Positions 14,971 to 36,374 of a DNA stretch of 36,616 nt are shown in pieces. The notes beneath the pieces are model-generated. The model saw only the letters and a list, made by a program, of their open reading frames with translations. It searched no databases and was not told the origin of the DNA. The translations under genes and the position numbers were made by a program. Every line of letters starts with the position of its first letter. Within the stretch, counting starts at the first letter, position 1. Source of the DNA: Candidatus Zhuqueibacterota bacterium (GTDB taxonomy: Bacteria > Zhuqueibacterota > Zhuqueibacteria > Residuimicrobiales > Krinioviventaceae); NCBI GenBank assembly GCA_016929295.1, contig JAFGJB010000114.1, forward strand, positions 1 through 36,616, in the 5' to 3' direction.

Positions 14971-16203
14971 CTAGACAATGATCTCCCCGGGTTCCTCATG
15001 ACTCAAAAATCTCAACGGACTTGCCGAGAAACCATAGGCCCCGGAATTGAATACTACGAGGATATCGCCCTCCTCGGCATGCGGAAGCTCGACATTCATG
15101 CCGAATGTATCCAGCGGCGTACACAAGGGTCCGACGACATTCACCTTTTCCAAAGGTTTATCCATGGCCGTGGCGATGGTCATGGGCATCGGCCGATGCA
15201 CCAATCTCTGGCCCATATTTCCGGATGCAGCAAGATGCTGATGCATGCCGCCATCGATGATGATAAAAACCTGATCGCGCGATATCTTGCGATATAATAC
15301 TTTGGCCGCATATATCCCGCATGGCCCAATCAGATAGCGTCCAAGCTCAATCTTGAATAGCGTATGAGGTAGGCTTTTTCGGTATTTTTCAAGCAGAGAG
15401 ATGATGCCGGCGCCGACCGCCTCGATATCCAGCTCATCATCCATAGCAAAATAGGGAATGCCAAAGCCGCCGCCCAAATTCAAAATATCCATTTCAATTG
15501 CCGTCGTGCGAGTCAACTCGATGGCATAGGCGATAATTTTCTCAAAAGTTGCGATGATGTCATCGCCACTCAGGTTTTGCGATCCGGCGTAAATGTGAAC
15601 GCCGCGAATATGCACCCTTTGATCGTCGCAATATTTGTGCAGGAGCGCTGGAAGGCGTTCGCTATCCACGCCAAACTGTTTGGCGCCGCCACCCATTTTG
15701 AGTCCAGATTTGGACAATTCAAAATGCGGATTGATGCGGATCAATACATTGACCGATTTGTTCAAATCAGTGCAGATGCGGCTCAACCGGGCAATTTCCT
15801 GTTCACTTTCAATGCTGATCGATCCAATTCCCAGCATGACAGACCGGGTCAATTCTTCATTACTTTTTCCTGGACCGGCGAAGCTCATTCGGCCGGGCGC
15901 GACGCCGGCTTCCATGGCCCTGGCGATTTCACCAGCGGATGCCACATCAAAACCATCGTAAAGCGTGCCGAGCTCTCGCAGCATTTTCACATTGGGATTT
16001 GCTTTCACCGCATAGTCAATCCGCAGCTCTGCCGGCAAATTTTTGCGCAGCAGACCGTGGCGCCGGCGGAGTAGGGACAGGTCATAAATATAGGCTGGGG
16101 TGCGGCTTTCTGCCACTATTTCCTGAACCGTTCGTCCTCCAACGACAAGATCATTGCCATTCTTGCTAAAATTCGCAACACAGGAGCTCAATGCTTTGTT
16201 CAT
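14971..16203 (-). CDS. Pyridoxal-dependent decarboxylase, exosortase A-associated type (LysA/ornithine decarboxylase fold III)
   Basis: TPAYIYDLSLLRRR...IDYAVKANPNVKMLRELGTLYDGFDVASAGEI...NLGGGFGIPYF...VVGPLCTPLDTFGMNVELPHAEEGDILVVFNSGAYGFSASPLRFLSH. Confidence 0.9.
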   Translation of the reverse strand: MNKALSSCVANFSKNGNDLVVGGRTVQEIVAESRTPAYIYDLSLLRRRHGLLRKNLPAELRIDYAVKANPNVKMLRELGTLYDGFDVASAGEIARAMEAGVAPGRMSFAGPGKSNEELTRSVMLGIGSISIESEQEIARLSRICTDLNKSVNVLIRINPHFELSKSGLKMGGGAKQFGVDSERLPALLHKYCDDQRVHIRGVHIYAGSQNLSGDDIIATFEKIIAYAIELTRTTAIEMDILNLGGGFGIPYFAMDDELDIEAVGAGIISLLEKYRKSLPHTLFKIELGRYLIGPCGIYAAKVLYRKISRDQVFIIIDGGMHQHLAASGNMGQRLVHRPMPMTIATAMDKPLEKVNVVGPLCTPLDTFGMNVELPHAEEGDILVVFNSGAYGFSASPLRFLSHEEPGEIIV

Positions 16204-16329: not shown

Positions 16330-17940
16330 TCAAAAGGCGCCTTTTTCCACCCCAAGGCTCGCATAGACAGTCTTTTTTATCAGCGCCCGGTCTATCTTGC
16401 CGTTCGAGTTTCTGGGCAGTTCATCCCATATTTCGATATCGCTTGGGATCATATAGGGAGGCAGCATCGCTTTGCAATGCGTCATCAACTCCTCACTTGA
16501 GAGCGAGCCATCCCTGTGCGCAACGACGGCCTTTATGGTCTGCCCATAGACCTCATCCGGAATGCCGAGGACCATGGAATCTTTAACTTTTGGATGTTTA
16601 TACAGAACCTCCTCGACTTCAGTCGGGCTGACCCGGTTGCCGGCATATTTGATCATCTCATCCCGGCGGCCGATAAAATATAAAAATCCTTGCTCATCGA
16701 TCTTGACCTGATCGCCCGAGAAAACGACGATCTCGCGTAGGGGGACATCGGCCGGTTGCATGGGATTAGGCCGGAAACGAATGTTGGTGTTTTCAGCGTC
16801 ACCCCAATAGCCCTGGGCGACCAGAGCGCCGCGGTGCACCAATTCGCCAACCTGGCCTGGTTTGACGGGCTGATTATTTTCATCCAGAACCATAATCTCT
16901 TCCCCGGGAATTGCCTTGCCCATCGAGGTTGGCCGTTCTCTGACCAGAGAAGGATCAAGAAAAGTCGAACGAAAGGCCTCAGTGAGTCCGTACATCAAAT
17001 AGACCTCGGCGTGCGGCAGTCTGTTGACCATATCGAGCACATAATGTTGCGGAATCGCGCCGCCGGAGTTGGTCATATAGCGCAGGCTCGCCAGTTTTTC
17101 TGCATCCCATGGGATCTGCAGCAATTGTATCCAGGTGGCAGCAACTGCCGCCAGTCCGGTCACTTTATATTTTGCAACTATCTGCAAGACATCCTTGGGG
17201 AAAAGAGGATCAAGGAGCACAATACTGGCGTGGTGCAGAAAGGCGGTTGTGAGCTGGTTCAATCCGTAATCAAAATTAAAGGGCAAAATACTCAAAAGAC
17301 GATCCTTTTCAGTGATCTTGAGATATTCGGACACCGTATATGCGCCGGCGACAATATTCCTGTGCGTCAGGACCACGCCTTTGGGCTTGCCAGTGGACCC
17401 TGAGGTATAGAGAATGGCGGCGAGATCGGTCTCGACAATTCGCGGATAATCGACATACGTCGCATTGACGCTCTCTAGCGCCTGTTGCCAGGTGACGTGC
17501 TGAATTGCGGATGTTTCTCCGACCTGACGGGCGTCCATATCACCGATACAGATGATCAGCTCCAGAGTAGCCAGTTCATGATGATGATCTCTCATCTCGT
17601 GCATCCTGGAATGGGTGGTTATGAGGATTTTGGAACCGCTGTCATTGAGAATATGAACAACCTGCGCCGCTGTTGACAATCGCCTGATGGGCACGTTCAC
17701 GGCGCCGGCCATGGAAATGCCAAAAATGGCAATGACCTCTTCGAAACATTTCTCCATCCAGAAGGCCACCCGGTCGCCCTTGTGCAGCCCCTGCGCAATC
17801 AGGTACGACGAAAGCGCAAAAACGCCTGTCCCGACCTGATCATAGGTCAATGCGCGTTCTTTAAAGAATACCGCCTCCTTTTGAGACCCTCTGGCAATAC
17901 TCTCTGTCAGGATCTCGTGCACCACTCTCACCATAGACAC
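16330..17940 (-). CDS. Acyl-CoA ligase (AMP-forming), exosortase A-associated type
   Basis: ANL superfamily motifs: AILYTSGSTGKPKGVVLTHRNI, YGLTEAFRSTFLDP, IGRRDEMIKYAGNRVSPTEVEEVLYKHP, LPRNSNGKIDRALIKK. Confidence 0.92.
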   Translation of the reverse strand: MSMVRVVHEILTESIARGSQKEAVFFKERALTYDQVGTGVFALSSYLIAQGLHKGDRVAFWMEKCFEEVIAIFGISMAGAVNVPIRRLSTAAQVVHILNDSGSKILITTHSRMHEMRDHHHELATLELIICIGDMDARQVGETSAIQHVTWQQALESVNATYVDYPRIVETDLAAILYTSGSTGKPKGVVLTHRNIVAGAYTVSEYLKITEKDRLLSILPFNFDYGLNQLTTAFLHHASIVLLDPLFPKDVLQIVAKYKVTGLAAVAATWIQLLQIPWDAEKLASLRYMTNSGGAIPQHYVLDMVNRLPHAEVYLMYGLTEAFRSTFLDPSLVRERPTSMGKAIPGEEIMVLDENNQPVKPGQVGELVHRGALVAQGYWGDAENTNIRFRPNPMQPADVPLREIVVFSGDQVKIDEQGFLYFIGRRDEMIKYAGNRVSPTEVEEVLYKHPKVKDSMVLGIPDEVYGQTIKAVVAHRDGSLSSEELMTHCKAMLPPYMIPSDIEIWDELPRNSNGKIDRALIKKTVYASLGVEKGAF

Positions 17941-18850: not shown

Positions 18851-19678
18851 TCATCCACCCTGGCTGGCCAACCATGCTTGTGTATTCTCGATCGTGCGCC
18901 TGGCATCCCATCGCCAATATCTGTCCCAGAAGGGCTCTTCGACCGTGTGCACATAACTGAAGGAAGGGCACTTTTGCCTCAGCTGGTCAATTTTCTGCAC
19001 GAGATGAGCGGATGCCGCTGGCATATTTGATATTGTCGATATATAGACCAGATGCCGTGTCGTGAGTTGAGGATGGTCATGATCCATTGCTAAAAAGCTG
19101 CCATAGAGAGGATTCGACAGAGGATAACCGTTGACGTGCACGGTCTCACCGGCGGTTATTTTTTGCAGTAATGTCTGCAAAGAGCTGCTCTGACGTTCAT
19201 GGGAAAAATCCGAGACCAGTTTTTGCCGGACAAATTGCTGGATGTAATCCTTAAAGTGGAAAACAGGCTGCCACAGGACGAGGGCGGCGATATCCTCATG
19301 GTGCTGGGCATAGACCATCGCCAGCGCAGCTCCCAATCTCACTCCCCATAGCATGATGTTTTCAACACGAGTCCGGCGCTTCGCCTCACTGATCGCAGCG
19401 CTGATGTCATCCAGCCAGTTGTGCAAACTAGAGCTGTTGAATTCACCCTGACTATCGCCGCAGCCGTTAAAATCAAAACGAAACACCGCGAATCCTTGAC
19501 GAGCGAAAGCGCGCGCCGCTTTAACGGTCACTGAATGGCAACAATTTTTTTCTTCGGCAAAGGGATGACAATAGACAATGGCGCTGGTTCGCATCATATC
19601 TTTCGGGATATGGACAAAACCCATCAAATCAACGCGACTGCCCTTGAAAAAGAACATCTCTTCCTGCGTTTTAGACAT
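18851..19678 (-). CDS. Exosortase A system-associated hydrolase 2-like alpha/beta hydrolase
   Basis: FVHIPKDMMRTSAIVYCHPFAEEKNCCHSVTVKAARAFARQGFAVFRFDFNGCGDSQGEF...NIMLWGVRLGAALAMVYAQ; paired with the hydrolase-1-like gene and the ACP gene. Confidence 0.82.
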   Translation of the reverse strand: MSKTQEEMFFFKGSRVDLMGFVHIPKDMMRTSAIVYCHPFAEEKNCCHSVTVKAARAFARQGFAVFRFDFNGCGDSQGEFNSSSLHNWLDDISAAISEAKRRTRVENIMLWGVRLGAALAMVYAQHHEDIAALVLWQPVFHFKDYIQQFVRQKLVSDFSHERQSSSLQTLLQKITAGETVHVNGYPLSNPLYGSFLAMDHDHPQLTTRHLVYISTISNMPAASAHLVQKIDQLRQKCPSFSYVHTVEEPFWDRYWRWDARRTIENTQAWLASQGG

Positions 19679-19934
19679 CCTGCATTTCTAATTTTCGATG
19701 AACAACAGCAGAGAGTGATTCGAGGGTGCTAAAAGTTTCCAGAGACAGCTCTTCGTCGCTGAAGGTGAATCCGAAATGCTCTTCCAGTGCCAGTATGAGA
19801 TTTGTCACAGCCATTGAATCCAGCAGATCGCCGGCAATTTTGAAATCATCCGCGAGTTTATCGGGAGTCAGGTTCATATCGATTGTGTGCTGAATCAGAC
19901 TTTTAATCTCACGTTTTGTCGTTTCTCTGTCCAT
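19671..19934 (-). CDS. Acyl carrier protein
   Basis: 87 aa; DLLDSMAVTNLILALEEHFGFTFSDEEL contains the phosphopantetheine attachment-type DSM motif; 8-bp overlap with the hydrolase-2-like gene. Confidence 0.88.
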   Translation of the reverse strand: MDRETTKREIKSLIQHTIDMNLTPDKLADDFKIAGDLLDSMAVTNLILALEEHFGFTFSDEELSLETFSTLESLSAVVHRKLEMQDV

Positions 19935-22300: not shown

Positions 22301-24166
22301 TTAACAATGTGATTGATGCCATGCCTCGAGCATGATCAATTTCCACAAAATTGTCCCATAATAGGGTGTGTTATCCTGCAAATGCAGACGCCACAGTTTT
22401 TCAACAAAGTCCGGTTTTACGTAGCCGCGCTGCAAATGGTCCCGACTGAACAGCAGATCGCGGGCGAAATCCTGCACATCCGGCTGTTTGCGCAGCCACT
22501 CTGATATGGGCAGCCCAAAGCCATGCTTTTTCTTTTGAATGATCTCCACCGGCAGCAGATCGCGAAAAGCATATTTAAAAATATAGCGCAATCCGTAAGT
22601 GCCTTTGAGTTTCAGCGACGTTGGAATGCGAAATGCCAGATCGACGAGCGGATGATCCAACATCGGATAGCGGACGTGCACGCCGGCCAGTTCCGTCATG
22701 CGCGTCACCTTGACCAGATCGTTATCCGTAATGGTCATCTTCATATCAAGATAAAGATGTCGATCCAGGAGCTCGGCATCTTTCAGGCGCGCAAAATGGC
22801 TCTCCGCTATATTGGCGGTTTCCTTCATCATATTCGAATCCAAAAAAGCGGGATCGAACAGCTCTTCATCTTGTACATATCGATAGGAATCGATGCGTTC
22901 GACCTCGCCCATTTTTGCGCGGCGTATGTAACTGCCGGCCTTTTGAAAAAGTGTCAGAGGCAACCTTTCCAGTCGATTGAGCAACAGAGGTTCCAGCAGG
23001 CTGCGCCTGACCAAACCAGGCAGTTTGAAATAGTTTCGAAAGACCTGCTGCTCGCTATAGCGTTGATTGCCGCCAAAGATTTCGTCGCCGCCGTCTCCCG
23101 CCAGCATACAGGTGACGCCACTTTCGCGCGCGTTCAGCGCACAAAAATAGGCCGGAATAATTGACGAATTGCCATACGGCTCATCATAGGCGTGCAGCAG
23201 TTTGGGAAAGGCATGCATGACATCCGCGGGTTTGACATAATACTCGTTATGGTCAAGATGAAAGGCTTTTGCGGCGATGCGCGCGTACATCATCTCATCA
23301 TAGCCATTTTCAGGAAAACCGATCGAATAAGCCTTCACTTTATCGCCGTTCAGCCTGCTCAGCAAGCCGCAAATAGTGCTGCTGTCAGTGCCGCCGCTCA
23401 AAAAGCAACCGAGTTCAGCCTGATTTTTCACGCCGTTCCTCGTGAGATCAACGGCCTTGGAGAGAGTCTCGTAGACATGCTCGGCAATCTCATCCTTATT
23501 TTGCAGCTTGGGCTGGTTAGATATATCCCAATAATGATCGATATCATAACTATCTTGACGAGCGCACATCTGATAGCCCGGTTCCAGTTTGTGAACATTT
23601 TTATAGATCGTCATGGGCGCCGGAATCATCTCCAGTTGAATATAAGCATAGACAGCCGCATTATTGACATCCAGTGGGCGAACAAGTTCAGCAATGGCAT
23701 TCATTCTGGATGCAAAATAGAACGTGTTGCCCCTTTTGTGCCACACGAGAGGGCGGACACCGAAGCGATCGGTGATGGCAATCATCTGATTTTTTTTGAC
23801 ATCAAAGAGAATGATCGCAAAGTTGCCGCGAATTTTTACCGCCCACTCTCTGCCGTTCTTCTTGTAGCATGCTGCCAGCACTTTGCCGATTTCGCTCTTC
23901 TCGCCGTCATATTCCGGCGCCAGTTCGGCCGCATTGTAAATGTCAGCTACAGCGACGAGCGACAGTTCAGCATCGTGATAGAGAAAAGTTTTTCGGCAGG
24001 TCGTTTTCCCGGGACAGTAAGAGCGCGCCATAGCCCAATTGGAATTCATCGTGAATTCATAGTCCAGCGTCTCGCCATCAGAGAGGCTGTGAGCCATTTC
24101 TTGTATCGATATTGGAATATCAACGAGCGCACGATCAAATGAAATAAATCCGCAAATACCTTCCAT
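22301..24166 (-). CDS. Asparagine synthetase homologue with degenerate N-terminal glutaminase domain (Cys2 replaced by Glu)
   Basis: Starts MEGICGFISF behind a clear RBS (AGAGGAAACCTGATG); intact synthetase motif GCFLSGGTDSSTICGLL and AGDGGDEIFGGNQRY. Confidence 0.88.
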   Translation of the reverse strand: MEGICGFISFDRALVDIPISIQEMAHSLSDGETLDYEFTMNSNWAMARSYCPGKTTCRKTFLYHDAELSLVAVADIYNAAELAPEYDGEKSEIGKVLAACYKKNGREWAVKIRGNFAIILFDVKKNQMIAITDRFGVRPLVWHKRGNTFYFASRMNAIAELVRPLDVNNAAVYAYIQLEMIPAPMTIYKNVHKLEPGYQMCARQDSYDIDHYWDISNQPKLQNKDEIAEHVYETLSKAVDLTRNGVKNQAELGCFLSGGTDSSTICGLLSRLNGDKVKAYSIGFPENGYDEMMYARIAAKAFHLDHNEYYVKPADVMHAFPKLLHAYDEPYGNSSIIPAYFCALNARESGVTCMLAGDGGDEIFGGNQRYSEQQVFRNYFKLPGLVRRSLLEPLLLNRLERLPLTLFQKAGSYIRRAKMGEVERIDSYRYVQDEELFDPAFLDSNMMKETANIAESHFARLKDAELLDRHLYLDMKMTITDNDLVKVTRMTELAGVHVRYPMLDHPLVDLAFRIPTSLKLKGTYGLRYIFKYAFRDLLPVEIIQKKKHGFGLPISEWLRKQPDVQDFARDLLFSRDHLQRGYVKPDFVEKLWRLHLQDNTPYYGTILWKLIMLEAWHQSHC

Positions 24167-24206: not shown

Positions 24207-26075
24207 TTAAATCCGTCGCGTCTGCGGATCCATAAATGTCTGAAACCACAATTCAAGCATCAGAAGCATATAGATCCATTCGCCAAAATCACGCCGGCCT
24301 TTTGTGTGCAGATCGAGAACATTTTCAACAACGGCAGGTTTAAAGATGCCGCGAGCTTTGCTGCGATCATCCAGCAGCATCTCCTTCACATAGCTGTTGA
24401 GCGAACTTTTGAACCACTTGCCGACAGGGATGGCAAAGCCCTGTTTTGATTTTTTCAGTATATGCTCAGGCACATATTTTTTTAAAACCTGTTTCAAAAT
24501 ATGCTTGCTCACGCCGTCCTTCATCTTGTAATCGACCGGGAGCGTTGTCGCGAATTCGATCAGTCGATAATCGAGCAGGGGAGCGCGCGTCTCCAGAGAG
24601 TTCGCCATGCTCATGCGATCGACTTTGACGAGGATATCGCCCGGGAGATAGTATTGCAAATCGATGAGCTGCATGCGCGTGAGTTTGTCGTGATTTTTAT
24701 ACTGCATGACCAGGTCGCGACGAGACCGCATGGGATCCGAGGCACGAAATTCGTGCAACATGTGAGGGTCGAGAATATCTTCTTTAATATACGGATAAAA
24801 GCCCGGAGCGCCCTGTCCTTCGTCCTGCGGCACGCTGGCGATATACTTGAGCATATTTCGCATGGGCGCCTGAATCGGCAATAAACCGGCGACCGCACCC
24901 GCTATATTTTTTCTGAGACCATAAGGCAAGGCAAAAAAGAGCTCATATTTATCACGATTGAAATAATTTCGATAGCCGGCGAACAGCTCATCACCACCGT
25001 CTCCGGACAAAATGACCGTGACATGCTCGCGAGCCATTTTTGACACATAATAGGTTGGTATTGCGGATGAATCGGCAAAGGGCTCATCAAAATGCCAGGC
25101 GATCTGCGGCAGGACAGCGACCGAATCTGTCGACACTTGCAAAATTTTGTGATTTGTCGCGCAGTGCCTGGAGACACTGCGGGCATCTTCGAGCTCGGAA
25201 AAAGTCTTTTCAGCAAAATCGATTGTAAATGTATTGACGTGGGCTGATGACCTGGCCATCATGGCCACAACAGCGCTCGAATCAATGCCGCCGCTTAAAA
25301 AAGCTCCCAGCGGCACGTCGCTGATCAGACGGCTGTCGACAGCTTTCTGCAAGAGGATTTCAAGATTTGCTACTGACTCCTCTTCCGTTTGTCCGTCAGA
25401 GCCGGGTTCTGGCAGCGTCCAGTATTGGCGTTCCTGACATTGATTATCTTTATAGACGAGGATGTGCGCTTCACCCACCTGGCGAATATTTTTAAAAATG
25501 GTCATCGGCGCATGGATATAGCCAAAAGTCAGATATTCATTCAACGCCTCCGCATCCCAGTCGCGTGCGATAGCGCCCATGGCGAGTATGGCTTTGATCT
25601 CGGAGGCAAAGACAAACTGATCACCTTTGTGATAATAATAGAGCGGTTTCTTGCCGACCCGGTCGCGGCCCAGCATGAGCGTGCGCTCTTTTTTGTCCCA
25701 GAGAGCAAAAGCAAACATCCCCTGAAAATGACGAACGCACTCCTCACCGTATATTGCGTACGCGGCCAAAATGACCTCTGTATCCGAACGAGTTCTGAAG
25801 CGAAAACCGGCGCTTTTCAGCTGCGCCCGCAGTTCCTGAAAATTGTAAATTTCGCCGTTGAATGACACCACATAACGCCCCAGCCAGTCCTCCATGGGTT
25901 GAGCGCCGCTGTTCAGGTCGATGATGCTGAGGCGTCGATGTCCCAACGCCATATGGTCATCAATGTAGGCGCCGCAGCCATCCGGACCACGATGGAATAA
26001 TACTTCCCCCATGCGGTCGAGGAGAGCGCGACTTTCATTTTTGCCTGCAGTGGTAAAGCCGTAAATTCCGCACAT
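24207..26075 (-). CDS. asnB: Asparagine synthetase (glutamine-hydrolysing)
   Basis: MCGIYGFTTAGKNESRALLDRMGEVLFHRGPDGCGAYIDDHMALGHRRLSIIDL...SFNGEIYNF...GAFLSGGIDSSAVVAMM...LSGDGGDELFAGY. Confidence 0.93.
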   Translation of the reverse strand: MCGIYGFTTAGKNESRALLDRMGEVLFHRGPDGCGAYIDDHMALGHRRLSIIDLNSGAQPMEDWLGRYVVSFNGEIYNFQELRAQLKSAGFRFRTRSDTEVILAAYAIYGEECVRHFQGMFAFALWDKKERTLMLGRDRVGKKPLYYYHKGDQFVFASEIKAILAMGAIARDWDAEALNEYLTFGYIHAPMTIFKNIRQVGEAHILVYKDNQCQERQYWTLPEPGSDGQTEEESVANLEILLQKAVDSRLISDVPLGAFLSGGIDSSAVVAMMARSSAHVNTFTIDFAEKTFSELEDARSVSRHCATNHKILQVSTDSVAVLPQIAWHFDEPFADSSAIPTYYVSKMAREHVTVILSGDGGDELFAGYRNYFNRDKYELFFALPYGLRKNIAGAVAGLLPIQAPMRNMLKYIASVPQDEGQGAPGFYPYIKEDILDPHMLHEFRASDPMRSRRDLVMQYKNHDKLTRMQLIDLQYYLPGDILVKVDRMSMANSLETRAPLLDYRLIEFATTLPVDYKMKDGVSKHILKQVLKKYVPEHILKKSKQGFAIPVGKWFKSSLNSYVKEMLLDDRSKARGIFKPAVVENVLDLHTKGRRDFGEWIYMLLMLELWFQTFMDPQTRRI

Positions 26076-26084
26076 AATTCTCTC

Positions 26085-28265
26085 TCACCCGCGATGCAAA
26101 CGATCCGCCACGCCATTCATCTCGATGATCGCCTTTGCTCGGGAAAACAGTAAATCTTGCGTGAGGTAGCCAGCGTCTTTTCGTTTGAGCGCATAGGGAT
26201 TTGAATTTTCGTCATTCATGCCTTCGATGGTCGTAAAGGCCACATGGTATCCGCACTGTTTGCACAGTCTCTGGCAGTCGTCATTGAATCGCCCCCAGGG
26301 ATAGGCGAGTGAAGTCACCTGAACTGAGAGCTCTTTTTCGATGAGCTCTTTAGAGTTGGCGATCTCATATTCAAGCTCTTTCGGCTGCAGACAATCCAGG
26401 TAAAGATGCTGCATGGAATGCGATCCGACGGTCAGCAAACCACTCTTGAGCATCATCTGTATATCTTGTGCTGACGCCAATTTCATATCGGAGGATATCA
26501 ACAATCCGGCGGTTCGCCGCTGCAAATCATCGCGCATTCTGCTGCGGAACTGTTCATCCCGGTAATTGAGATCACGGAGCAGATGTTTCAGGAGATGATG
26601 AATATCAAGACTATCGGCATAGCCATTTTGAGAAAAGAACCAGTCATTGCTTTTGATGAAATCGTTCCAGCCTTCAATGTCCTGATGGAACAAGGCGTGA
26701 ACATATTTGAAAACATCGTTGCACCAGATCCCCTCCTGCTCGGCGAATGGTTTTGCCACAAGAAAGATAAAAAATGGCACGTTGTTACGGAGTAAAAAGG
26801 GGAATGCATGATCAACCACATCCTGATAACCGTCATCAAAAGTGATTGAAAAGCATGGCTCATCAAAGCCATAGTGACTTGCCAGGCGGTCGGCAATCTC
26901 CTCGGCGCCGATTGGTCTGGCATTTTCCAGCAGAAAGAGCACCTCTTTCTCGAATGTTTCACAGGGGATGGCCTGGCTCGGCTGCATCACCTGAAACCAG
27001 CGATCGAAAGGGACCACCTGATGCGATGTCAGGACGTGCAATCCGGATTTAATCCGTCTCTTTGCACGATGGACAAATGGAGAGGCAGTATTGAGCGCGA
27101 CTTTTTTCATCGCTGTTTTCAGCAGACCATTCTTTAGCGATGATTGCGAATAGGACGAGCTGTACAGATGCGCGTAGGAATAGATCGTCTTGCGAATGTC
27201 ATGATGACTTTCAATGGTCTGTCGCCCGTGTGCGCCCAACGTTGCCGCGAGTTTGGCATCATTTAGTAAAAGATCGATCGCACCGGCGAGTTTTTCCGGT
27301 GATTTGCTGGGAACGAGCAGGCCGTTCCAGCCGTTTTCGATGATGAAAGGTGTTCCGCCAACCCGGGTGGCGATGACCGGTTTGGCCATGGCCATCGCTT
27401 CGAGCAGTGTATTGCTCATTCCCTCATAGATTGATGAATTGACATAGATGTCAAAAGCCTGCAGGACGCACTGGATATCCTTGCGCTTGCCCATAAAGGC
27501 GATCTGTTCTTTGATGCCAAGTTTAGCCGCAAATTTTTGCATTGATTCAATGTCGTCGCCATAGCCGACAACAGCCAGATGAAGATCACGATGTGCGCCC
27601 AGCAGCGCATGAAAAGCCAAAATGAGCGTTTTTAAATCCTTGATTGGCCTGATTAAACCTATGACCGTGCCGATGACAGTTTTATCCTGCGGAAGCCCTG
27701 TTTTTTTTCGGCATTCTGTCTTGTCGATATCCAGCCGAAACGAATCGAGATCGACGCCATTTTCAATGGTCAAAATTTTCCACGGCGCCAGGACATTCTC
27801 CTTTTGCCAATCTTGTGCGATATCTTTTGATACAGTCGTCATCCGGTCACAGAGGGCAAAAAGCAGCTTGTTCATGATCAAGCGCTTTTTGCTAAAGAGA
27901 TATTTCTCGCTCTCCCGGCCGTGCTCGCCATGAATGACGACCGGCACTCTGGCCATTTTAGCAGCAAGAACCGAATAGGCAAGCGTGCACCAGTTATGAG
28001 AATGCAAAATATGAAAATCGTGTTCTTTCAGCAACGCTCGCAGGCGAAAGATGAGTCTCCAGTCAAATCCGGGTTTGCGATCAAGTGGCAATATTTTAAT
28101 ATCATCCGGTATAGGCGGCAAAGAATCCGGGTGCCATTTAAAACAGATGATGCTGATATCAAATCCCTGTTTGCTGAGCAAAATCGATTGGCGAAGAACG
28201 CCGAGTTCAAGCCCGCCGATCCCCAAATAATTCAATATATGCACAATTCTCAATTTGTTCTTCAT
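26085..28265 (-). CDS. Bifunctional fusion: N-terminal GT4 glycosyltransferase, C-terminal polysaccharide deacetylase
   Basis: N-terminus RIVHILNYLGIGGLELGVLRQ...YVNSSIYEGMSNTLLEAMAMAKPVIATRVGGTPFIIENGWNGLLV; C-terminus CFSITFDDGYQDVVDHAFPFLLRNNVPFFIFLVA...VGSHSMQHLYLDCL...SLAYPWGRFNDD; one uninterrupted 726-aa ORF. Confidence 0.9.
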   Translation of the reverse strand: MKNKLRIVHILNYLGIGGLELGVLRQSILLSKQGFDISIICFKWHPDSLPPIPDDIKILPLDRKPGFDWRLIFRLRALLKEHDFHILHSHNWCTLAYSVLAAKMARVPVVIHGEHGRESEKYLFSKKRLIMNKLLFALCDRMTTVSKDIAQDWQKENVLAPWKILTIENGVDLDSFRLDIDKTECRKKTGLPQDKTVIGTVIGLIRPIKDLKTLILAFHALLGAHRDLHLAVVGYGDDIESMQKFAAKLGIKEQIAFMGKRKDIQCVLQAFDIYVNSSIYEGMSNTLLEAMAMAKPVIATRVGGTPFIIENGWNGLLVPSKSPEKLAGAIDLLLNDAKLAATLGAHGRQTIESHHDIRKTIYSYAHLYSSSYSQSSLKNGLLKTAMKKVALNTASPFVHRAKRRIKSGLHVLTSHQVVPFDRWFQVMQPSQAIPCETFEKEVLFLLENARPIGAEEIADRLASHYGFDEPCFSITFDDGYQDVVDHAFPFLLRNNVPFFIFLVAKPFAEQEGIWCNDVFKYVHALFHQDIEGWNDFIKSNDWFFSQNGYADSLDIHHLLKHLLRDLNYRDEQFRSRMRDDLQRRTAGLLISSDMKLASAQDIQMMLKSGLLTVGSHSMQHLYLDCLQPKELEYEIANSKELIEKELSVQVTSLAYPWGRFNDDCQRLCKQCGYHVAFTTIEGMNDENSNPYALKRKDAGYLTQDLLFSRAKAIIEMNGVADRLHRG

Positions 28266-28295: not shown

Positions 28296-29399
28296 TTAAT
28301 AATTCTTGTGACGAACCAATTTTTCAGTCAGCGGCAGCAGTTTAAATTTTACCATATAGGCAATTTTTGCCCGTAAAGAGTTTGAAAAAAGGAAGATGAT
28401 GGACGAATCCAGGGAATCGGCAATGAAGCGATTTTTGTACGGATCATATCCATCATTGATATACAAGTCGTGCTGTCCATCAAACAGATCGCGAATGAGC
28501 ATGAGATTCACCAGATTTCCCGGCGAATTTTTGTTAAATTCATCCAGATAGGCCGTATCGATGGCGTAGTAACGATTCTCTGTGCAGAGCCCGAAAAGGT
28601 AGGCAACAGGCTTGTTGTCAAAATAGAGTAGCGCCAGATCGAGCTCACCTTTACGATTAAATTCTCGTGCGATCTGTCGGTAAAATCCTTCTACATGCGC
28701 ATTGGAGCTGATCGCCGAGTCCGTATCATTCTTCCAGCTCTTCCTGGCGATGCCAACGATCATATCAACACAGGATTCCACATCGTCTTCATCAATAGCC
28801 CTGAGCCTTTTGAATTCAACAGAATAAAGCTTGTTCACCTGGTTTTGTTTGTTGTTGTAGGTATGCTTCAGCTTTTGGCCAAATCCTTTCAGGTAATCTT
28901 CCCAGGCGCCCTGCAGCTTGATCACAGGTATATCATAGGGTTCGATCATAGCCGCATATTTACTCGTTCGCAGCCATTCACTAAAAATAGAAAATTGTGC
29001 CGATGCTCGCAGCATGCCTTTCAATACAATGACATCCCATTTTCGGCCAAAGCGCCGGGTGAGATAATTCATCAGCTCGGGTACAACCTCATTGATGCGC
29101 TCTGATACAATAAAGCTGCCGACGCCGAGATTGTAGCCCGCGAAATCGATTCTTTTCACCGCAATTTTGCCCAGCGTTCCCTTCCAGACATAGAGAGGGG
29201 CAAATCCAATCTCTTTTTCTTCATCATAGATGACCAATACCAGCGGCATACCCGAAAATGAGTACCATTTATACCAGCTGGTCACCCATTCAAAAGCGGT
29301 GAAGGCGGAGCCGCTGCATCCTGCAGAATTTAGCTTGTTCCAGACATCGCGATAGTCCGCAAGCTCTTCCAGAGTCGTTATTTCCCGAATCGTCATCAT
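28296..29399 (-). CDS. GNAT/FemAB-like transferase (CelD/BcsL-type, acetyltransf_6-like)
   Basis: ORF 28296..29618. The likely ATG at 29399 begins MMTIREITTLEELADYRDVWNKL...FTAFEWVTSWYKWYS...; WEDYLKGFGQKLKHTYNNKQNQVNKL...LDLALLYFDNKPVAYLFGLC. Confidence 0.78.
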   Translation of the reverse strand: MMTIREITTLEELADYRDVWNKLNSAGCSGSAFTAFEWVTSWYKWYSFSGMPLVLVIYDEEKEIGFAPLYVWKGTLGKIAVKRIDFAGYNLGVGSFIVSERINEVVPELMNYLTRRFGRKWDVIVLKGMLRASAQFSIFSEWLRTSKYAAMIEPYDIPVIKLQGAWEDYLKGFGQKLKHTYNNKQNQVNKLYSVEFKRLRAIDEDDVESCVDMIVGIARKSWKNDTDSAISSNAHVEGFYRQIAREFNRKGELDLALLYFDNKPVAYLFGLCTENRYYAIDTAYLDEFNKNSPGNLVNLMLIRDLFDGQHDLYINDGYDPYKNRFIADSLDSSIIFLFSNSLRAKIAYMVKFKLLPLTEKLVRHKNY

Positions 29400-29442
29400 C
29401 GTTCGAATCCCTTCCGCCAATGCTTTCCAGTCCAAAGTGCAG

Positions 29443-30339
29443 CTAAAGCAAGCTGGTGCTAAAATACCTCTCCGCCCGGTCCACCAGCACGGTGACGATA
29501 TTTTTATCGCTTGCAGCGGCCAGCTTTTTCGCTGCCCACACATTAGCCCCCGACGACGTGCCGACCAGCAGTCCTTCTTCTTTTGCCAACATTCTTGTGG
29601 TGCTGATCGCATCTTCATCCGTAACCGTGATCACATCATCGATCAACGACACGTCCAGCACAGATGGAATGAAGCCGTCGCCGATGCCCTGAATTTGGTG
29701 CAGGCCAGGCTCCCGACCGAGAAGTGCGGCGCAATTTTCAGGCTCGACAGCGATCACTTTGATGTCACGATTTTTCTCCTTCAAAAATTTGCCAACCCCG
29801 CCGATGGTGCCGCCGCTGCCGACGCCGGCAACAAAGGCATCAATATGGCCATCCATCTGCGACCAGATTTCCTGCGCCGTGGTCAAATAATGAATTTCAG
29901 GATTGCGCGGATTTTCAAACTGTTGCGGCACAAAAATAGAGCTGTCCATTTCTTGCAGCTCTTTGATCTTTTGTATGCTGCCCTGCATGTTGTCTCTGGT
30001 GGGCGTGTAAATGATCTCGCCGCCAAAAGCACGGATGATCTTTTTTCTTTCCTCACTCATATTTTCCGGCATCACAATGATGACGCGGTAACCCTTTTGC
30101 ACGCCGACCAGTGCCAAGCCAATTCCGGTATTCCCGGAACTCGGTTCTGCAATGATCGACTCTTTTGTCAAGTGACCGTCGCTTTCAGCCTGTTCGATCA
30201 GATACTTGGCAACCCTGTCCTTGATGCTGCCACCAGGATTGAGAAATTCTGCCTTGGCAAATATATTGCCCGCGCTGATCTTGTGCAATTTCACCATGGG
30301 AGTATTGCCAATGGCGTCCAATATTTTCACTGCGTGCAT
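29443..30339 (-). CDS. cysK: Cysteine synthase family PLP enzyme (O-acetylserine sulfhydrylase-like)
   Basis: MHAVKILDAIGNTPMVKLHKISAGNIFAKAEFLNPGGSIKDRVAKYLIEQAE...EPSSGNTGIGLALVG...VAGVGSGGTIGGVGKFLKEK...GIGDGFIPSVLD...GTSSGAN. The ATG at 30339 is chosen because the longer ORF overlaps a tRNA. Confidence 0.92.
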   Translation of the reverse strand: MHAVKILDAIGNTPMVKLHKISAGNIFAKAEFLNPGGSIKDRVAKYLIEQAESDGHLTKESIIAEPSSGNTGIGLALVGVQKGYRVIIVMPENMSEERKKIIRAFGGEIIYTPTRDNMQGSIQKIKELQEMDSSIFVPQQFENPRNPEIHYLTTAQEIWSQMDGHIDAFVAGVGSGGTIGGVGKFLKEKNRDIKVIAVEPENCAALLGREPGLHQIQGIGDGFIPSVLDVSLIDDVITVTDEDAISTTRMLAKEEGLLVGTSSGANVWAAKKLAAASDKNIVTVLVDRAERYFSTSLL

Positions 30340-30363
30340 GGGTCTGTGCTTTCTTTTTATGAG

Positions 30364-30434
30364 AGGCGGCAACTGGAGTCGAACCAGTGAATACGACCTT
30401 GCGGGCCGCAGCCTTACCACTTGGCTATGCCGCC
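30364..30434 (-). tRNA. tRNA-Cys (anticodon GCA), copy A, with C33
   Basis: Folds as GGCGGCA/TA/GCC-AAGTGGTAA-GGC/T/GCGGC-CCGCAAG-GTCGT/ATTC/ACTGG-TTCGACT-CCAGT/TGCCGCC/T; U73 discriminator; CCA not encoded. Confidence 0.9.
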
Positions 30435-30516
30435 TTGTTTTCCACCTTTAATTTGTATTCGCGATGGCTTTTTACATGTTTGAGGACGAACAAGAGCTTT
30501 TTTCGCATTTCATAAG

Positions 30517-30587
30517 AGGCGGCAACTGGAGTCGAACCAGTCCGTACGGCCTTGCGAGCCGCAGCCTTACCACTTGGCTATGCCGCC
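30517..30587 (-). tRNA. tRNA-Cys (anticodon GCA), copy B, with C33
   Basis: GGCGGCA/TA/GCC-AAGTGGTAA-GGC/T/GCGGC-TCGCAAG-GCCGT/ACGG/ACTGG-TTCGACT-CCAGT/TGCCGCC/T; 5 differences from copy A by eye; U73; CCA not encoded. Confidence 0.9.
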
Positions 30588-30597
30588 TTGTTTTTCG

Positions 30598-31821
30598 TCA
30601 TTCAATGATGCCTGGAGATCGCGAAGCGGCCACTTCAGCGTCTCTCGAGAGTGAAATTGGCGCGTTTCGCTGAAGGGATTCGATCTTTCCGAGCATGCGT
30701 TTGGCTATCTTTTTACACGAGCGCATGGTTCTGGTGATCCAAAATGTCGTTTTTCCCACAATGTTATTTTTAAAGATCATTATGGAATAGAGCGTTGTCG
30801 ATCTGTTGGCGAACTTGAACTTGTAGGATTCATCTCCGCGAAGCATGCTAAAGTTGACGCCATTTTTCTGGATGCAGTATAGAATTACATGAAAGAGGTG
30901 CACAATGCCGATGCTAAATTTTGAAAATTGCGGTTCCCAGCCATTTTGATAAAAGAAATAGTTGTCCTGAAAATGAAAGATGAGAATGATCGAAACGATC
31001 TTGTCATTCACCTGCACAAGCGAGAAAAAGCCGCCATCCTTATTCAGCACAGCGTTCAATTTGCGATGAAAATCTTTGCGAAAATCATTGTTAAATGTGC
31101 TCGCTTTATCCTCGATGCTCTCCCACCTCGTTTCATGCAGCTGGAACAGCGTATCAACCAGTTCGTCACTGCGGTTGAATTCGATAAATTTAAATTCAAC
31201 ATGATCAAATTCTTTGCGCAACTGCTTTTCCCGTCTTTTCAGATTATAGCGCGTATTTGAGCTCAATTGATCGAAAAATTCATCTTCGCTGCCGGGCAAA
31301 ACGATTTCCGGACAGTTGTTGGCCGGGTAAACCAAAAAATGACTGGAGCGCCTTGACAATTCGGGAATAGCATATTGATGAAGAATTGAATCTTGAGAAA
31401 AACCGGCCAATCCTGTTGCAGAAAATGAAGAGCTGGTTAACAACTCATCGACAAAAAGCCGCACGCACTGGCGCTCGCAGCCGGGCTTTATGATAAAGTC
31501 GAGATAGTCACTCGCAACATCTTCACCGAGAAATTTTATTTTCCATATCGGAAATCCCAGTCGGGGCCGCCGGCAGCAATAGAGCGGCGCCAGGCCGACG
31601 AGATCCGCATTGTTTTCGACGGCTAGAATGGCGAGCCTGTTGCTGCCATTTTTGATGCTCAGCCAATAGCTGTACAGCCACTCCCATTTTAAAAAGAACG
31701 AGTGAGAGCGCGCCTGCACCAATAATGCATTCCAGACGGTCTGCATCCCTGCAAACTCTGTTTCATCAACGGCTCTTAATTTATAATCCAGGGACATCTG
31801 AGCTATACTCACACTCATCAT
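30598..31821 (-). CDS. GNAT/FemAB-like transferase (CelD/BcsL-type)
   Basis: FFLKWEWLYSYWLSIKNGSNRLAILAVENNADLVGLAPLYCCRR...EDEFFDQLSSNTRYNLKRREKQLRKEF...FSLVQVNDKIVSIILIFHFQDNYFFYQNGWEPQF. Confidence 0.82.
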   Translation of the reverse strand: MMSVSIAQMSLDYKLRAVDETEFAGMQTVWNALLVQARSHSFFLKWEWLYSYWLSIKNGSNRLAILAVENNADLVGLAPLYCCRRPRLGFPIWKIKFLGEDVASDYLDFIIKPGCERQCVRLFVDELLTSSSFSATGLAGFSQDSILHQYAIPELSRRSSHFLVYPANNCPEIVLPGSEDEFFDQLSSNTRYNLKRREKQLRKEFDHVEFKFIEFNRSDELVDTLFQLHETRWESIEDKASTFNNDFRKDFHRKLNAVLNKDGGFFSLVQVNDKIVSIILIFHFQDNYFFYQNGWEPQFSKFSIGIVHLFHVILYCIQKNGVNFSMLRGDESYKFKFANRSTTLYSIMIFKNNIVGKTTFWITRTMRSCKKIAKRMLGKIESLQRNAPISLSRDAEVAASRSPGIIE

Positions 31822-31827
31822 TATCGT

Positions 31828-33315
31828 CTACGACCTGTTCACCGACAGATACTTACTCAGAAAATGACTCGCATATGAAAGTTCTTTGCCATCAAAATAC
31901 CCGACGATATAAAGAAGAAGCGGCAGCGTCAGCAGGATGAGAGATTTGACCGCTATACTGGCAAAAAGACTGTCGATGTTGACGGCGGTCGTGGCAAAAT
32001 AGACCAAGAGACTCAGGGTGAACAGCTTGAGCAAAGCGACCAGGTCATATTTAAGACGATAGTAACGCTGCGAAATCACATACGCCAGCAAGGGACAGAT
32101 GGCGAACGAGATGGCCGTCACAGCTGCGGCACCCATCACGCCCCAGATGGGAATCAGCAAGAAATTGAGCCCGATGTTCGCCAGCGCCGCAATGGCGTTG
32201 ATGATCACATAATAATAGGTCTTGTTATGAACGTAAAAACCGATATCGACAAAATTATACATGTTGTAAAACGTATAGCCCAAAATCACCAGCGGGACGA
32301 CGCGGTAGGCCGACCAAAAATCGGGCGCCGCCACAATCTTGACAATATCCTGGATCAGCACCGAAATGATCAATCCTGTCACCACCAGCACCAGAGTGAA
32401 ATATTTAAACACGCGCGGGAAAATGTCATCTCTGTTCAGCCTGTCTTCATAAATCTCGACCCGTTTGGGCGCCCAGATGGAGGCGAACGGCGCGCCGATG
32501 AACGTGCTCAACAGCATGCCGAACTTGTAACCCAGCGCATAGATCCCCACATCCCCCAGGCTTAGCAGTCGGTTCATGATGAACCTGTCGCCCATGTTCA
32601 GGGTGAAAATCAGAATGCCGGCCGGCACCAGCGGCAGGCTGAAGAAAAAAAGCTTTTTGAGCATCTGGAGGTTAAAATGAAATTTTACGCGAGCATAAGT
32701 GTACAGCGAGAGGACGATGCAGGCGACCCCGTTTGACAAAATCATACTATACAAAATGCCGCTGACACCCCACTGTAGCACGACGATGAAATAGATATTG
32801 AATCCCAGACCAAGCAGCAGTTGCATGATGGATATAGTGATGAAGATGATTGATTTTTCCAGTATCCTCACATAGGCGTAACCGATCGCCGTGGCCAACT
32901 CAAATGCCAGTGAGATGAAAATCAGGATGAAATAAAAAGTATAATCCGTTCTGGAAAAGACGAGCCTGGAAAAAAAGTTGCTCTGGGAGGAGAGCAAAAT
33001 CCCGGCGATGAGGGACAGAATGGCGACAAAATTGAGCGATGTCGAGACGAGCTGCTGCTTTTCTTCCGCCGATTTATAGATGAAATAGTAGCGCGCCAAC
33101 CCCGAGCTGATCCGCAGCGCCAGCACCGTGGCTAACACCGATGACACCAGGGTCAGCAGTTCCAATATGCCATAATCGGCTGGCGTCAAATAGGACGTAT
33201 AAACGGGTATCATGACAAAGCCGATCAATTTGCTCAGGATATTGCCAAGAGAATAAATAGAACCGTGTTTCAATATATTTTTTAAATCAGCTATCATGAT
33301 CTGATCGGCTTTCAT
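31828..33315 (-). CDS. Wzx-like oligosaccharide flippase / polysaccharide biosynthesis membrane protein (MATE/MOP superfamily)
   Basis: Multi-TM; ILKHGSIYSLGNILSKLIGFVMIPVYTSYLTPADYGILELLTLVSSVL is typical of the polysaccharide flippase N-terminus. Confidence 0.9.
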   Translation of the reverse strand: MKADQIMIADLKNILKHGSIYSLGNILSKLIGFVMIPVYTSYLTPADYGILELLTLVSSVLATVLALRISSGLARYYFIYKSAEEKQQLVSTSLNFVAILSLIAGILLSSQSNFFSRLVFSRTDYTFYFILIFISLAFELATAIGYAYVRILEKSIIFITISIMQLLLGLGFNIYFIVVLQWGVSGILYSMILSNGVACIVLSLYTYARVKFHFNLQMLKKLFFFSLPLVPAGILIFTLNMGDRFIMNRLLSLGDVGIYALGYKFGMLLSTFIGAPFASIWAPKRVEIYEDRLNRDDIFPRVFKYFTLVLVVTGLIISVLIQDIVKIVAAPDFWSAYRVVPLVILGYTFYNMYNFVDIGFYVHNKTYYYVIINAIAALANIGLNFLLIPIWGVMGAAAVTAISFAICPLLAYVISQRYYRLKYDLVALLKLFTLSLLVYFATTAVNIDSLFASIAVKSLILLTLPLLLYIVGYFDGKELSYASHFLSKYLSVNRS

Positions 33316-34264
33316 AAATCGAGTGTAATTTCTGTTGAGTTTTATTGAACGATTGTTTCACGTTTTGCAGCGGCGCAAAGTAGGACTTGCATATATGAAA
33401 ATTTATTTTTTCACCAACGCAAGGCGCCCAATGTCTTTTATAATCCGAATATTCTCCACCCATATCAAATTTACTGAAACCCGATGCTTTTGCCCAGGAT
33501 AGTGAGAGATCTATCAGATAAGTGCCGACACTACACTTTTCGTATTCAGGCGACCTGAAAAAATGAGTCGCCACGAGATTGTTCTGGTGAACTATAGATG
33601 ACAATCCTGCTATGAATTCCCCTTTATCCATCAACATGACAGAATAATGTCGATTTATTTTTTCGAGATAATTCACCACCAGCAATTTATCCGATAAATT
33701 GCCATGCTCTGACTTGTCACCAGCGTTCCATTTCGAATTGCAGTTTTTTATAATCCACTCGGCACTTGCAGGAGGATTGACGATGCTGGCGAATTCACAG
33801 CAATGTCGCCGCGCCTGTTTTACATGTCTCATGTGACTTTTTGTCCAGTTTTTCTCATAGTCTTGTGATAAATCCACCATATAGGTTGGAATTCTCTCGA
33901 CCGTTATAATATGCTGACACTCTGGCATCGGCGTACTATTTCTCCACAAGGAGATCCATAAATTTATTTCAAGAGCATTTAAAACAGGCCCTAAATATCC
34001 CTCTTGAACGGGAAAGAGACATCCGGGCAACAGATAATGCGTCACAGGCACCCAGTTGCCAGCTCTTTTTCGAAGTCCGATGAGCGCGATCGGCATATCC
34101 TTCGCCGTGACAAGAGCTGTCCTTTTGCTATTGGTCATATTGTTCTGTATGAGTGATTTGTACAAACTATGAGGGCACCCGCTCATCTCGGGCAGCATAT
34201 TCAGGGCATTGTCCAGCTTATCGACCCACTTGTTAAACCAGCGAACAGATAATTTTGTTTTCAC
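33287..34264 (-). CDS. GNAT/FemAB-like protein, tandem paralogue 1 (GTG start)
   Basis: Shares WFxxWxxxLDxAL..LPEMxxCPHxLYKxLI, KRTALV, PVTHYLLPGCLFP, DLSQDYEKNWTKSHMRHVKQARRHC and DMGGEYSDYKRHWAP with the next two ORFs. Confidence 0.78.
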   Translation of the reverse strand: MKTKLSVRWFNKWVDKLDNALNMLPEMSGCPHSLYKSLIQNNMTNSKRTALVTAKDMPIALIGLRKRAGNWVPVTHYLLPGCLFPVQEGYLGPVLNALEINLWISLWRNSTPMPECQHIITVERIPTYMVDLSQDYEKNWTKSHMRHVKQARRHCCEFASIVNPPASAEWIIKNCNSKWNAGDKSEHGNLSDKLLVVNYLEKINRHYSVMLMDKGEFIAGLSSIVHQNNLVATHFFRSPEYEKCSVGTYLIDLSLSWAKASGFSKFDMGGEYSDYKRHWAPCVGEKINFHICKSYFAPLQNVKQSFNKTQQKLHSIYESRSDHDS

Positions 34265-34436
34265 TCCTCTCTCTCCGCTTTCTGCAAGGCCATTTGCTCT
34301 TGAGAATTCTTGTACTTTGCCTCGTCATCGACTCCGCTGTCCAAAATGTGCTGCAACCATTTGTGGATCGATTATCAAATTTGCTTCTCTTTGTTGCACG
34401 CGGGATTCAAGCCTTCCCGGAAATCAATCTTGACAT

Positions 34437-35369
34437 TCAAGGCACTCGATTGAATGAATGTTTAATTTTATTGATAAAGAATTTATGAGGTGGACAAATA
34501 TGGATGTTAATTTTTTCACCCTTGCACTGCGCCCAGCGCTTTTTATAATCCGCATAGTCGCCACCCATATCGACGTTATGGAATCCAGCATCTTTTGCCC
34601 ACGAAAATGTGAGATCCATAATGTACGTGCCAATACTAAAATTATCATACTCGGCACGTCTGAATGTTTTCACCCCGACAAGATCGCTTCCATGAACGAT
34701 CAGGTTCGAACCAGCAATAAACTCTCCCTTGTCCATTAATATTAAAGAGTAATGACGGTTCATTTTTTCGAGATAATTGATGATTATTTGCTCGTCTGAC
34801 TGCTCAACATCCTGGGCATCAGCATTTTCTTCCCATTTCATATAGCTGTTTTCGACCACCCATTCCGCACTTCCTGGTGGATTGACGGCAAAGGTAAAGT
34901 CCTGACAATGCTTTCGCGCTGATCTTACATTTTTAAAATGCTTTTTTGTCCAGGTTTGTTCATAATCCTGTGTGAGGCCCAGCATATAGGTCGGAATTTT
35001 TTCGATATTTATGATATATCGACTCTGCGGGACGGGGATATTGTTTCTCCACCATGACATCCACAGATTAACATTGAGACTCTCCAAAATTGATCCCAAA
35101 CAGGCTTCTTGCATGGGGAAAAAAAAGCCCGGCAATAAATAGTGGGTCACCGGCACCCAATTGTCAACTCTCTTGCGAAGCCCGACCACCGCGACAGGGG
35201 CATCGTCTTTTGTCACCAGCGCAGTCCGTTTGCCGGGCACAGAGTCGTTTTGTACGAGCTGTTTGAACAACTCGTGCGGGCAACTCTTTTTTTCAGGCAG
35301 AAGCAAGAGCGCTGCGTCCAGGTCGGGATGCCACTTTTCAAACCAATGAACAGTTAAATTTGCTTTCAT
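34437..35369 (-). CDS. GNAT/FemAB-like protein, tandem paralogue 2
   Basis: MKANLTVHWFEKWHPDLDAALLLLPEKKSCPHELFKQLV...VTHYLLPGFFFPMQE...DLTFSWAKDAGFHNVDMGGDYADYKKRWAQCKGEKINIHIC. Confidence 0.78.
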   Translation of the reverse strand: MKANLTVHWFEKWHPDLDAALLLLPEKKSCPHELFKQLVQNDSVPGKRTALVTKDDAPVAVVGLRKRVDNWVPVTHYLLPGFFFPMQEACLGSILESLNVNLWMSWWRNNIPVPQSRYIINIEKIPTYMLGLTQDYEQTWTKKHFKNVRSARKHCQDFTFAVNPPGSAEWVVENSYMKWEENADAQDVEQSDEQIIINYLEKMNRHYSLILMDKGEFIAGSNLIVHGSDLVGVKTFRRAEYDNFSIGTYIMDLTFSWAKDAGFHNVDMGGDYADYKKRWAQCKGEKINIHICPPHKFFINKIKHSFNRVP

Positions 35370-35405
35370 TTATTTATTCTATATTGCTACAGCTTCTGGC
35401 TGCAA

Positions 35406-36374
35406 TCAAAATTCAAATTTTGCCGAAAAACGTCCAACTCGGGTGTTCATGCTCGTGAGAAATGTCTTGAGATTTTTCAATAGCAGTTTGCTCGGCGGAC
35501 ATATATTGACGTTAATTTTTTCTCCAGCGATGGGCGCCCAGTTTTTTTTGTAATCCGAATAGTCTCCTCCCATATCGATGCTCTTGAATCCCGCTTCCTT
35601 TGCCCACGAAAAAGTCAGATCCATCAGCCGGGCGCCAACGCCGTATTTGTCATATTCATGGAGTCGATACATGTATTGGCCGACGAGATCCTGGCCATGA
35701 ACAATCAAAGTCGAACCCGCAATAAATTTATCCTCATCCGACAGAATCAAAGAAAAGTGGCGATCCCTCATCTCGAGATATTTGACCGCTATAAGCTGGT
35801 TCTTCACATCAAGAAATCGCATGTCGGAATTCTCGTTCCATTTTTCGCTGCTATTCTTTATGATCCACTCGGCACTTCCGGGGGGATTGACGGCGAATGT
35901 AAAATTAGAACATCGATTTCTCGCTGCCCTGACGTTTTTTCGCTGCTTTTTTGTCCACTGACTCTCATAGTCCTGAGTCAGATCCAGCCTGTAGGTTGGG
36001 ATGGTCTCGATCTTTCTTAAATATCGACAATCAGGAATGGATTTGTCATTTCTCCACCATGAGATCCACAAGTTGACACGGATATCATCTAGAATTGAGC
36101 GAAAATGTCTTTCATCCATAGGGAAAAAACAGTTCGGCAATAAATAATGCGTCACCGGCACCCAACTGTCACTCCTCTTTTTGAGCCCAATGAGAGCGAC
36201 GGGCGTATCTCCTTTTTTTGCAAGCGCCACTCTTTTGTTGGCGCCCATATCGTCCTTAATGAGTCGCTTGTACAAGTCGTGCGGGCAGTTATCCATTTCA
36301 GGCAGAGATTCGAGCGCCTTGTCAAGTATCGGGTGCCATTCCCTAAACCAGTCAAATGATATTTCTCTTTTCAT
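35406..36374 (-). CDS. GNAT/FemAB-like protein, tandem paralogue 3
   Basis: MKREISFDWFREWHPILDKALESLPEMDNCPHDLYKRLI...VTHYLLPNCFFPMDE...DLTFSWAKEAGFKSIDMGGDYSDYKKNWAPIAGEKINVNIC. Confidence 0.78.
   Translation of the reverse strand: MKREISFDWFREWHPILDKALESLPEMDNCPHDLYKRLIKDDMGANKRVALAKKGDTPVALIGLKKRSDSWVPVTHYLLPNCFFPMDERHFRSILDDIRVNLWISWWRNDKSIPDCRYLRKIETIPTYRLDLTQDYESQWTKKQRKNVRAARNRCSNFTFAVNPPGSAEWIIKNSSEKWNENSDMRFLDVKNQLIAVKYLEMRDRHFSLILSDEDKFIAGSTLIVHGQDLVGQYMYRLHEYDKYGVGARLMDLTFSWAKEAGFKSIDMGGDYSDYKKNWAPIAGEKINVNICPPSKLLLKNLKTFLTSMNTRVGRFSAKFEF

Follow-up and report, generated by a model that had tools for sequence, protein, structure and literature searches.

Dedicated tRNAs for the synthesis of a surface polymer are already known for glycine in staphylococci, where non-proteinogenic tRNA-Gly species and the transferases FemX, FemA and FemB build the pentaglycine bridge; extra isoacceptors with weakened EF-Tu-binding pairs in the T-stem are combined there with GNAT-fold transferases that modify a lipid-linked cell-surface precursor (PMC4052509, PMC9976931). 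Aminoacyl-tRNA-dependent enzymes of antibiotic pathways (Orf11, Sbb17, Sba18, VlmA, PacB and DhpH-C) share with FemX a double-GNAT fold and a catalytic lysine (Lys305 in FemX), and the review describing them names no dedicated tRNA genes for them (PMC12945691). Cys-tRNA is used outside the ribosome by peptide aminoacyl-tRNA ligases of the TglB type, LanB-like enzymes that work on a peptide scaffold and involve neither a GNAT nor a polysaccharide (PMC12945691). Here we analyse a locus of a Candidatus Zhuqueibacterota (KSB1) bacterium that may encode a cysteine counterpart of these systems. The window, by which we mean the whole stretch of DNA that was analysed, is one entire contig (JAFGJB010000114.1, C223 in our numbering; 36,616 bases) of a 4.34-Mb genome that is 96% complete. 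It differs from exosortase A (PEP-CTERM) exopolysaccharide loci in the addition of a cysteine synthase gene (cysK), two tRNA-Cys genes and a block of five GNAT genes (GNAT1–5). The tRNA pair quite probably represents a specialised, non-standard tRNA-Cys kept in the locus by selection. As to its function, the balance tips slightly towards Cys-tRNA being the donor for GNAT3–5 acting on the glycan of the locus, with the two tRNAs serving as dedicated non-ribosomal carriers of cysteine.

Both genes (copy 1, 30363..30434; copy 2, 30516..30587; minus strand, 72 nt each) encode complete tRNA-Cys(GCA) molecules with Rfam scores of 54–56 bits, a 7-bp acceptor stem, a 5-bp T-stem and a stable fold. Position 33 is C in both (anticodon loops CCGCAAG in copy 1 and TCGCAAG in copy 2), as it is in the copy found in a congeneric species (G001, see below), and T33 is present in every other tRNA recovered from the window's genome. 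The anticodon is positioned by a turn that the highly conserved U33 stabilises, and decoding is reported to be curtailed by G33 (PMC11415595); from C33 alone, the special tRNAs are predicted to be poorly used in translation. EF-Tu affinity is set by the T-stem pairs 49-65, 50-64 and 51-63 (PMC11231383). The last of these is U-A in all three special genes (T-stem ACTGG/CCAGT in copy 1) and C-G in the ordinary tRNA-Cys of the genome as well as in the tRNA-Cys genes of the phylum that were examined. By analogy with the cell-wall tRNA-Gly of Staphylococcus aureus, in which A51-U63 replaces G51-C63 (PMC4052509), U51-A63 may weaken EF-Tu binding in the KSB1 host. The D-loop and the variable loop are shorter than in the ordinary tRNA-Cys of the genome; the D-loop, GTGGTAA, keeps its GG, so that the staphylococcal type of G18G19 replacement is not seen. 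U73, G2-C71, C3-G70 and the GCA anticodon, the determinants known for cysteinyl-tRNA synthetase (CysRS) in bacteria (PMC9976931), are all retained. Our literature searches returned no report of a C33 tRNA-Cys, nor of a combination of cysK, tRNA-Cys and FemAB.

Three other identities were considered for the pair and rejected. A selC*-type tRNA-Cys would have an 8-bp acceptor stem and a 4-bp T-stem with a bulge, whereas the arms are of 7 bp and 5 bp here. A tRNA-like leader does not fit the Rfam result of two whole tRNAs with no further element. Duplication of the genomic tRNA-Cys at an integration site was discarded because the 3' halves differ.

The genome contains an ordinary U33 tRNA-Cys of 74 nt, located elsewhere within a Gly-Cys-Leu-Val tRNA cluster, and a second cysK (on contig C287) which scores higher than that of the locus (460 versus 394 bits). 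The locus cysK (29443..30339, minus strand) nevertheless qualifies as a cysteine synthase (TIGR01139, 394–395 bits; cut-off 351). The locus therefore carries surplus copies of both tRNA-Cys and cysK, and the presence of an additional isoacceptor alongside the ordinary one is what is expected of a dedicated non-ribosomal tRNA. A single CysRS scored over the cut-off in the genome.

The genes in question follow one another on the minus strand in the order, from upstream, GNAT5 (35406..36374), GNAT4 (34437..35369), GNAT3 (33287..34264), a Wzx-like flippase (31828..33315; PF13440/PF01943), GNAT2 (30598..31821), the two tRNA-Cys genes, cysK and GNAT1 (28296..29399), and lie upstream of the exosortase-A-type polysaccharide genes, which are on the same strand. 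The GNAT1 open reading frame extends to 29618, but the start at 29399 is the most likely one because the longer frame overlaps cysK. GNAT2 is separated from tRNA copy 2 by 10 bp, and tRNA copy 1 from the ATG of cysK by 23 bp; since such gaps are short, a single transcript is probable. A preliminary description of the locus had listed cysK, two tRNA-Cys genes, five GNAT-like genes and a Wzx-like flippase on one strand within a polysaccharide locus, and all were recovered where it had placed them. It had also called the tRNA genes unusual, without giving reasons, and specialised; C33, the shorter loops and U51-A63 bear out the former term, and their status as extra copies beside the U33 gene the latter.

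G001, recorded as a candidate division KSB1 bacterium (RQOI01000001.1), carries a syntenic block (stretch L059) with the order glycosyltransferase-deacetylase, GNAT1, cysK, one C33 tRNA-Cys, GNAT2, flippase and one homologue of GNAT3–5. The congener's contig thus has one special tRNA and one such GNAT, where the window has two tRNAs and a tandem triplet. An assembly artefact was rejected, as the congener, whose genome was assembled independently, has the block too. In the congener the stop codon of GNAT2 overlaps the first base of the tRNA, and the spacing between tRNA and cysK is nearly preserved. The congener's tRNA is identical to copy 2 at 70 of 72 positions. Identity between the two species at fourfold-degenerate sites is 51% in GNAT1, 51% in GNAT2, 53% in the glycosyltransferase, 64% in cysK and 73% in the flippase; the tRNA, C33 included, therefore appears to be under selection, and the block to be more than a chance arrangement.

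We then surveyed 82 genomes of the phylum. The C33 pattern, GNAT3–5 and GNAT1 orthologues were each found in two genomes, in every case the window's own and that of the congener; the only further match to GNAT1 in the phylum was a distant one (24% identity). Although confined to one lineage, this shared restriction, read from sequence comparison, is consistent with a single module. In four other genomes (G050, G069, G070 and G076), the stretches that were read of related loci of the exosortase A (XrtA) type contained no tRNA gene; the G050 contig ends before the corresponding part.

All five GNAT proteins match PF13480 (Acetyltransf_6). GNAT3–5 are tandem paralogues, GNAT3 and GNAT4 being 48–57% identical to GNAT5, and share an invariant lysine (K276 in GNAT5) close to where the PF13480 domain ends, a candidate counterpart of FemX Lys305; profile comparison of GNAT3–5 with GNAT1 and GNAT2, based on shallow alignments, revealed no detectable relation. 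When the model of GNAT5 was compared with the PDB, the top ten matches consisted of FemX (from Weissella and S. aureus) and the aminoacyl-tRNA-dependent synthases Sbb17 and Sba18 of the streptothricin pathway: nine carry the name of FemX or of an aminoacyl-tRNA-dependent peptide synthase, and the tenth is again Sbb17. FemX ranks first (E 9e-8, probability 1.00, TM-score 0.37), a ranking that is indicative only, given a predicted local distance difference test score (pLDDT) of 50 and TM-scores of about 0.4. The acyl-CoA enzyme VipF follows at ranks 12–13, and MprF/L-PGS and L/F-transferase come after it. The model of GNAT5 thus looks more like aminoacyl-tRNA transferases than like acyl-CoA-dependent GNATs. 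The preliminary description had labelled the five proteins FemAB/GNAT-like and proposed structure prediction, to look for a groove for the aminoacyl-tRNA acceptor stem. The label may hold as a resemblance in fold, indicated by the GNAT5 model, and fails at the level of sequence family; the fold search pointed towards aminoacyl-tRNA enzymes for GNAT5 but not for GNAT2. Two further checks that it had named, whether a synteny of cysK, tRNA-Cys and FemAB-like genes recurs in other genomes and whether the special tRNA turns up unlinked to such genes in close relatives, were answered by the congener and by the phylum survey, respectively: the synteny recurs, no unlinked copy was found, and none of the observations that it had listed as speaking against its idea was made.

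In the scheme that we propose, the cysK of the locus would supply cysteine and the single CysRS of the cell would charge the special tRNAs, which would be kept out of translation by C33, through poor decoding, and by U51-A63, as a weak EF-Tu pair. One or more of the FemX-like proteins GNAT3–5 would move cysteine from the tRNA onto a lipid-linked glycan precursor. The acceptor is plausibly a free amine produced by the glycosyltransferase-polysaccharide deacetylase fusion (26085..28265, minus strand), whose deacetylase could expose an amino group. The Wzx-like protein would then flip the thiol-bearing precursor, yielding a surface polymer that could cross-link via disulfides, bind metals or anchor proteins. 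Compared with the staphylococcal system, the amino acid would be cysteine rather than glycine, the tRNAs combine C33 with U51-A63 and keep the GG of the D-loop, they reside in a polysaccharide operon beside cysK, and the enzymes belong to PF13480 and not to PF02388. From the antibiotic-pathway enzymes the locus differs in its polysaccharide context. If correct, this would be a cysteine version with an altered decoding base, extending aminoacyl-tRNA chemistry to thiol-bearing glycans, and the signature of C33, a weak 51-63 pair and an extra copy could be used to find more non-ribosomal tRNAs in genomes.

Several observations weigh against transfer of cysteine from the tRNAs by GNAT3–5. None of the five GNATs matches PF02388 (FemAB) at E values up to 10, and a sequence search of solved structures gave no relevant match for them. 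The model of GNAT5 is of low confidence, that of GNAT2 (pLDDT 46) has VipF as its top match and FemX in sixth place, and neither GNAT1 nor GNAT2 discriminates between aminoacyl-tRNA and acyl-CoA enzymes. The synteny comes from two species of one genus, and among the stretches retrieved by the species-genome scan described below no C33 tRNA-Cys of another phylum has a relative of the window's GNATs as its neighbour. The GNATs might instead be acyl-CoA- or acyl-carrier-protein-dependent acyltransferases that decorate the glycan with substrates delivered by the locus's own acyl-CoA ligase and acyl carrier protein, with the special tRNA serving another Cys-tRNA user or a role in stress. The annotation of PF13480 as an acetyltransferase domain, the presence of the ligase and carrier protein and the top fold matches of GNAT2 speak for this. 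However, GNAT5 finds aminoacyl-tRNA enzymes first, and the acyl-CoA ligase, the decarboxylase and the hydrolases belong to the standard equipment of exosortase-A-type loci and are found also in the syntenic core of G050, a genome without GNAT3–5 or GNAT1 orthologues; we consider it improbable.

Also unlikely is a role in cysteine supply or regulation, in which the tRNAs would share a transcript with cysK and serve to raise or sense Cys-tRNA, either as extra decoding capacity or as a decoy or leader controlling cysK, and the GNATs would be unrelated passengers of the operon. The 23 bp between tRNA copy 1 and the cysK start, nearly kept in the congener, would suit such an arrangement. A C33 tRNA would be a poor decoder, though, and Rfam detects no leader element; moreover, in both species the side of the tRNA that faces away from cysK is abutted by GNAT2, and the tRNA's restriction to the genus is shared by GNAT1 and GNAT3–5. 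That the tRNAs are mere decayed duplicates, phage-derived genes or scars of integrative elements is very improbable: other bacteria do have C33 tRNA-Cys genes, in a prophage-like region (L072) and in a tRNA array (L074), but those of the locus are complete, fold stably, retain C33 within a sequence conserved between species and are flanked by the same genes in both species, and their 3' halves, unlike that of the genomic tRNA-Cys, argue against attachment-site duplicates of it.

In order to follow the C33 tRNA-Cys beyond the phylum, 84,980 species genomes were scanned with the pattern in one pass, and 17 DNA stretches matched. A U33 tRNA-Cys was also found in eight of the 13 other C33-bearing genomes, and the remainder may have one that the patterns missed. 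The 51-63 pair is weak in nine of 14 C33 lineages and in none of eight U33 genes (one per lineage; one-sided Fisher p 0.004); since this comparison was post hoc and the lineages are few, a tendency of C33 to co-occur with a weak pair is suggestive. A ninth U33 gene, found after the comparison, likewise has C51.

Some C33 genes adjoin plausible users of Cys-tRNA. In two lineages of the Candidate Phyla Radiation (CPR), Nomurabacteria and Levyibacteriota (L068:2855-3887 and L076:2348-3437), the tRNA abuts the start of a gene weakly similar to DIT1_PvcA (E ~1e-3). Paenibacillus caseinilyticus (L149:9423-13060) has a tandem C33 pair, both with a C51-A63 mismatch, preceded by a MerR-like gene and followed by genes for an LPD16-domain protein, an aminotransferase of class V that resembles cysteine desulfurases and an EamA exporter; the pattern is absent from the other 24 searched genomes of the genus. 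It is conceivable, if rather doubtful, that C33 tRNA-Cys genes are recurrent dedicated non-ribosomal cysteine carriers of several origins, each with a different Cys-tRNA enzyme (GNATs in KSB1, PvcA/DIT1-like proteins in the two CPR lineages, LPD16 and cysteine-desulfurase-like proteins in Paenibacillus), and that the surface polysaccharide made by the KSB1 locus is cysteinylated. To our knowledge, neither such a polymer type nor its donor chemistry has been described.

Other matches were found in varied settings. In a further CPR genome (L061:1267-2558) the C33 gene lies between murG/ftsW-like genes and gltX, with a U33 tRNA-Cys elsewhere. In Chitinispirillaceae (L077:2669-6764) it is situated ∼155 bp upstream of an operon for a GFO/IDH/MocA oxidoreductase, glycosyltransferases and a UDP-GlcNAc 2-epimerase. 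One Chloroflexi bin (L064, L065, L066 and L075) holds four dispersed C33 genes and one U33 tRNA-Cys, and tRNA-Ala(TGC) follows three of the four.

On its minus strand, the remainder of the window contains the gene set of an XrtA locus (TIGR03097–03101 and TIGR03108). Matches over the cut-off were obtained for the O-ligase (2942..4300; TIGR03097), the acyl-CoA ligase (16330..17940; TIGR03098) and a hydrolase (TIGR03100). The pyridoxal-phosphate-dependent decarboxylase (14971..16203; TIGR03099) falls just below it (471 of 478 bits), as do, by more, a TIGR03101 hydrolase (166 of 203) and two asparagine-synthase-like amidotransferases matching TIGR03108, one XrtA-type (24207..26075; 609 of 817) and a second (22301..24166; 293 bits). 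No exosortase was matched among the scanned genes of the window, the rest of the genome not having been searched for one. The acyl carrier protein (PF00550) is encoded at 19671..19934. Finally, positions 11349-14948 encode a secreted-looking protein of 1199 aa that has Asp-rich repeats resembling calcium-binding ones and a C-terminus similar to a sorting domain.

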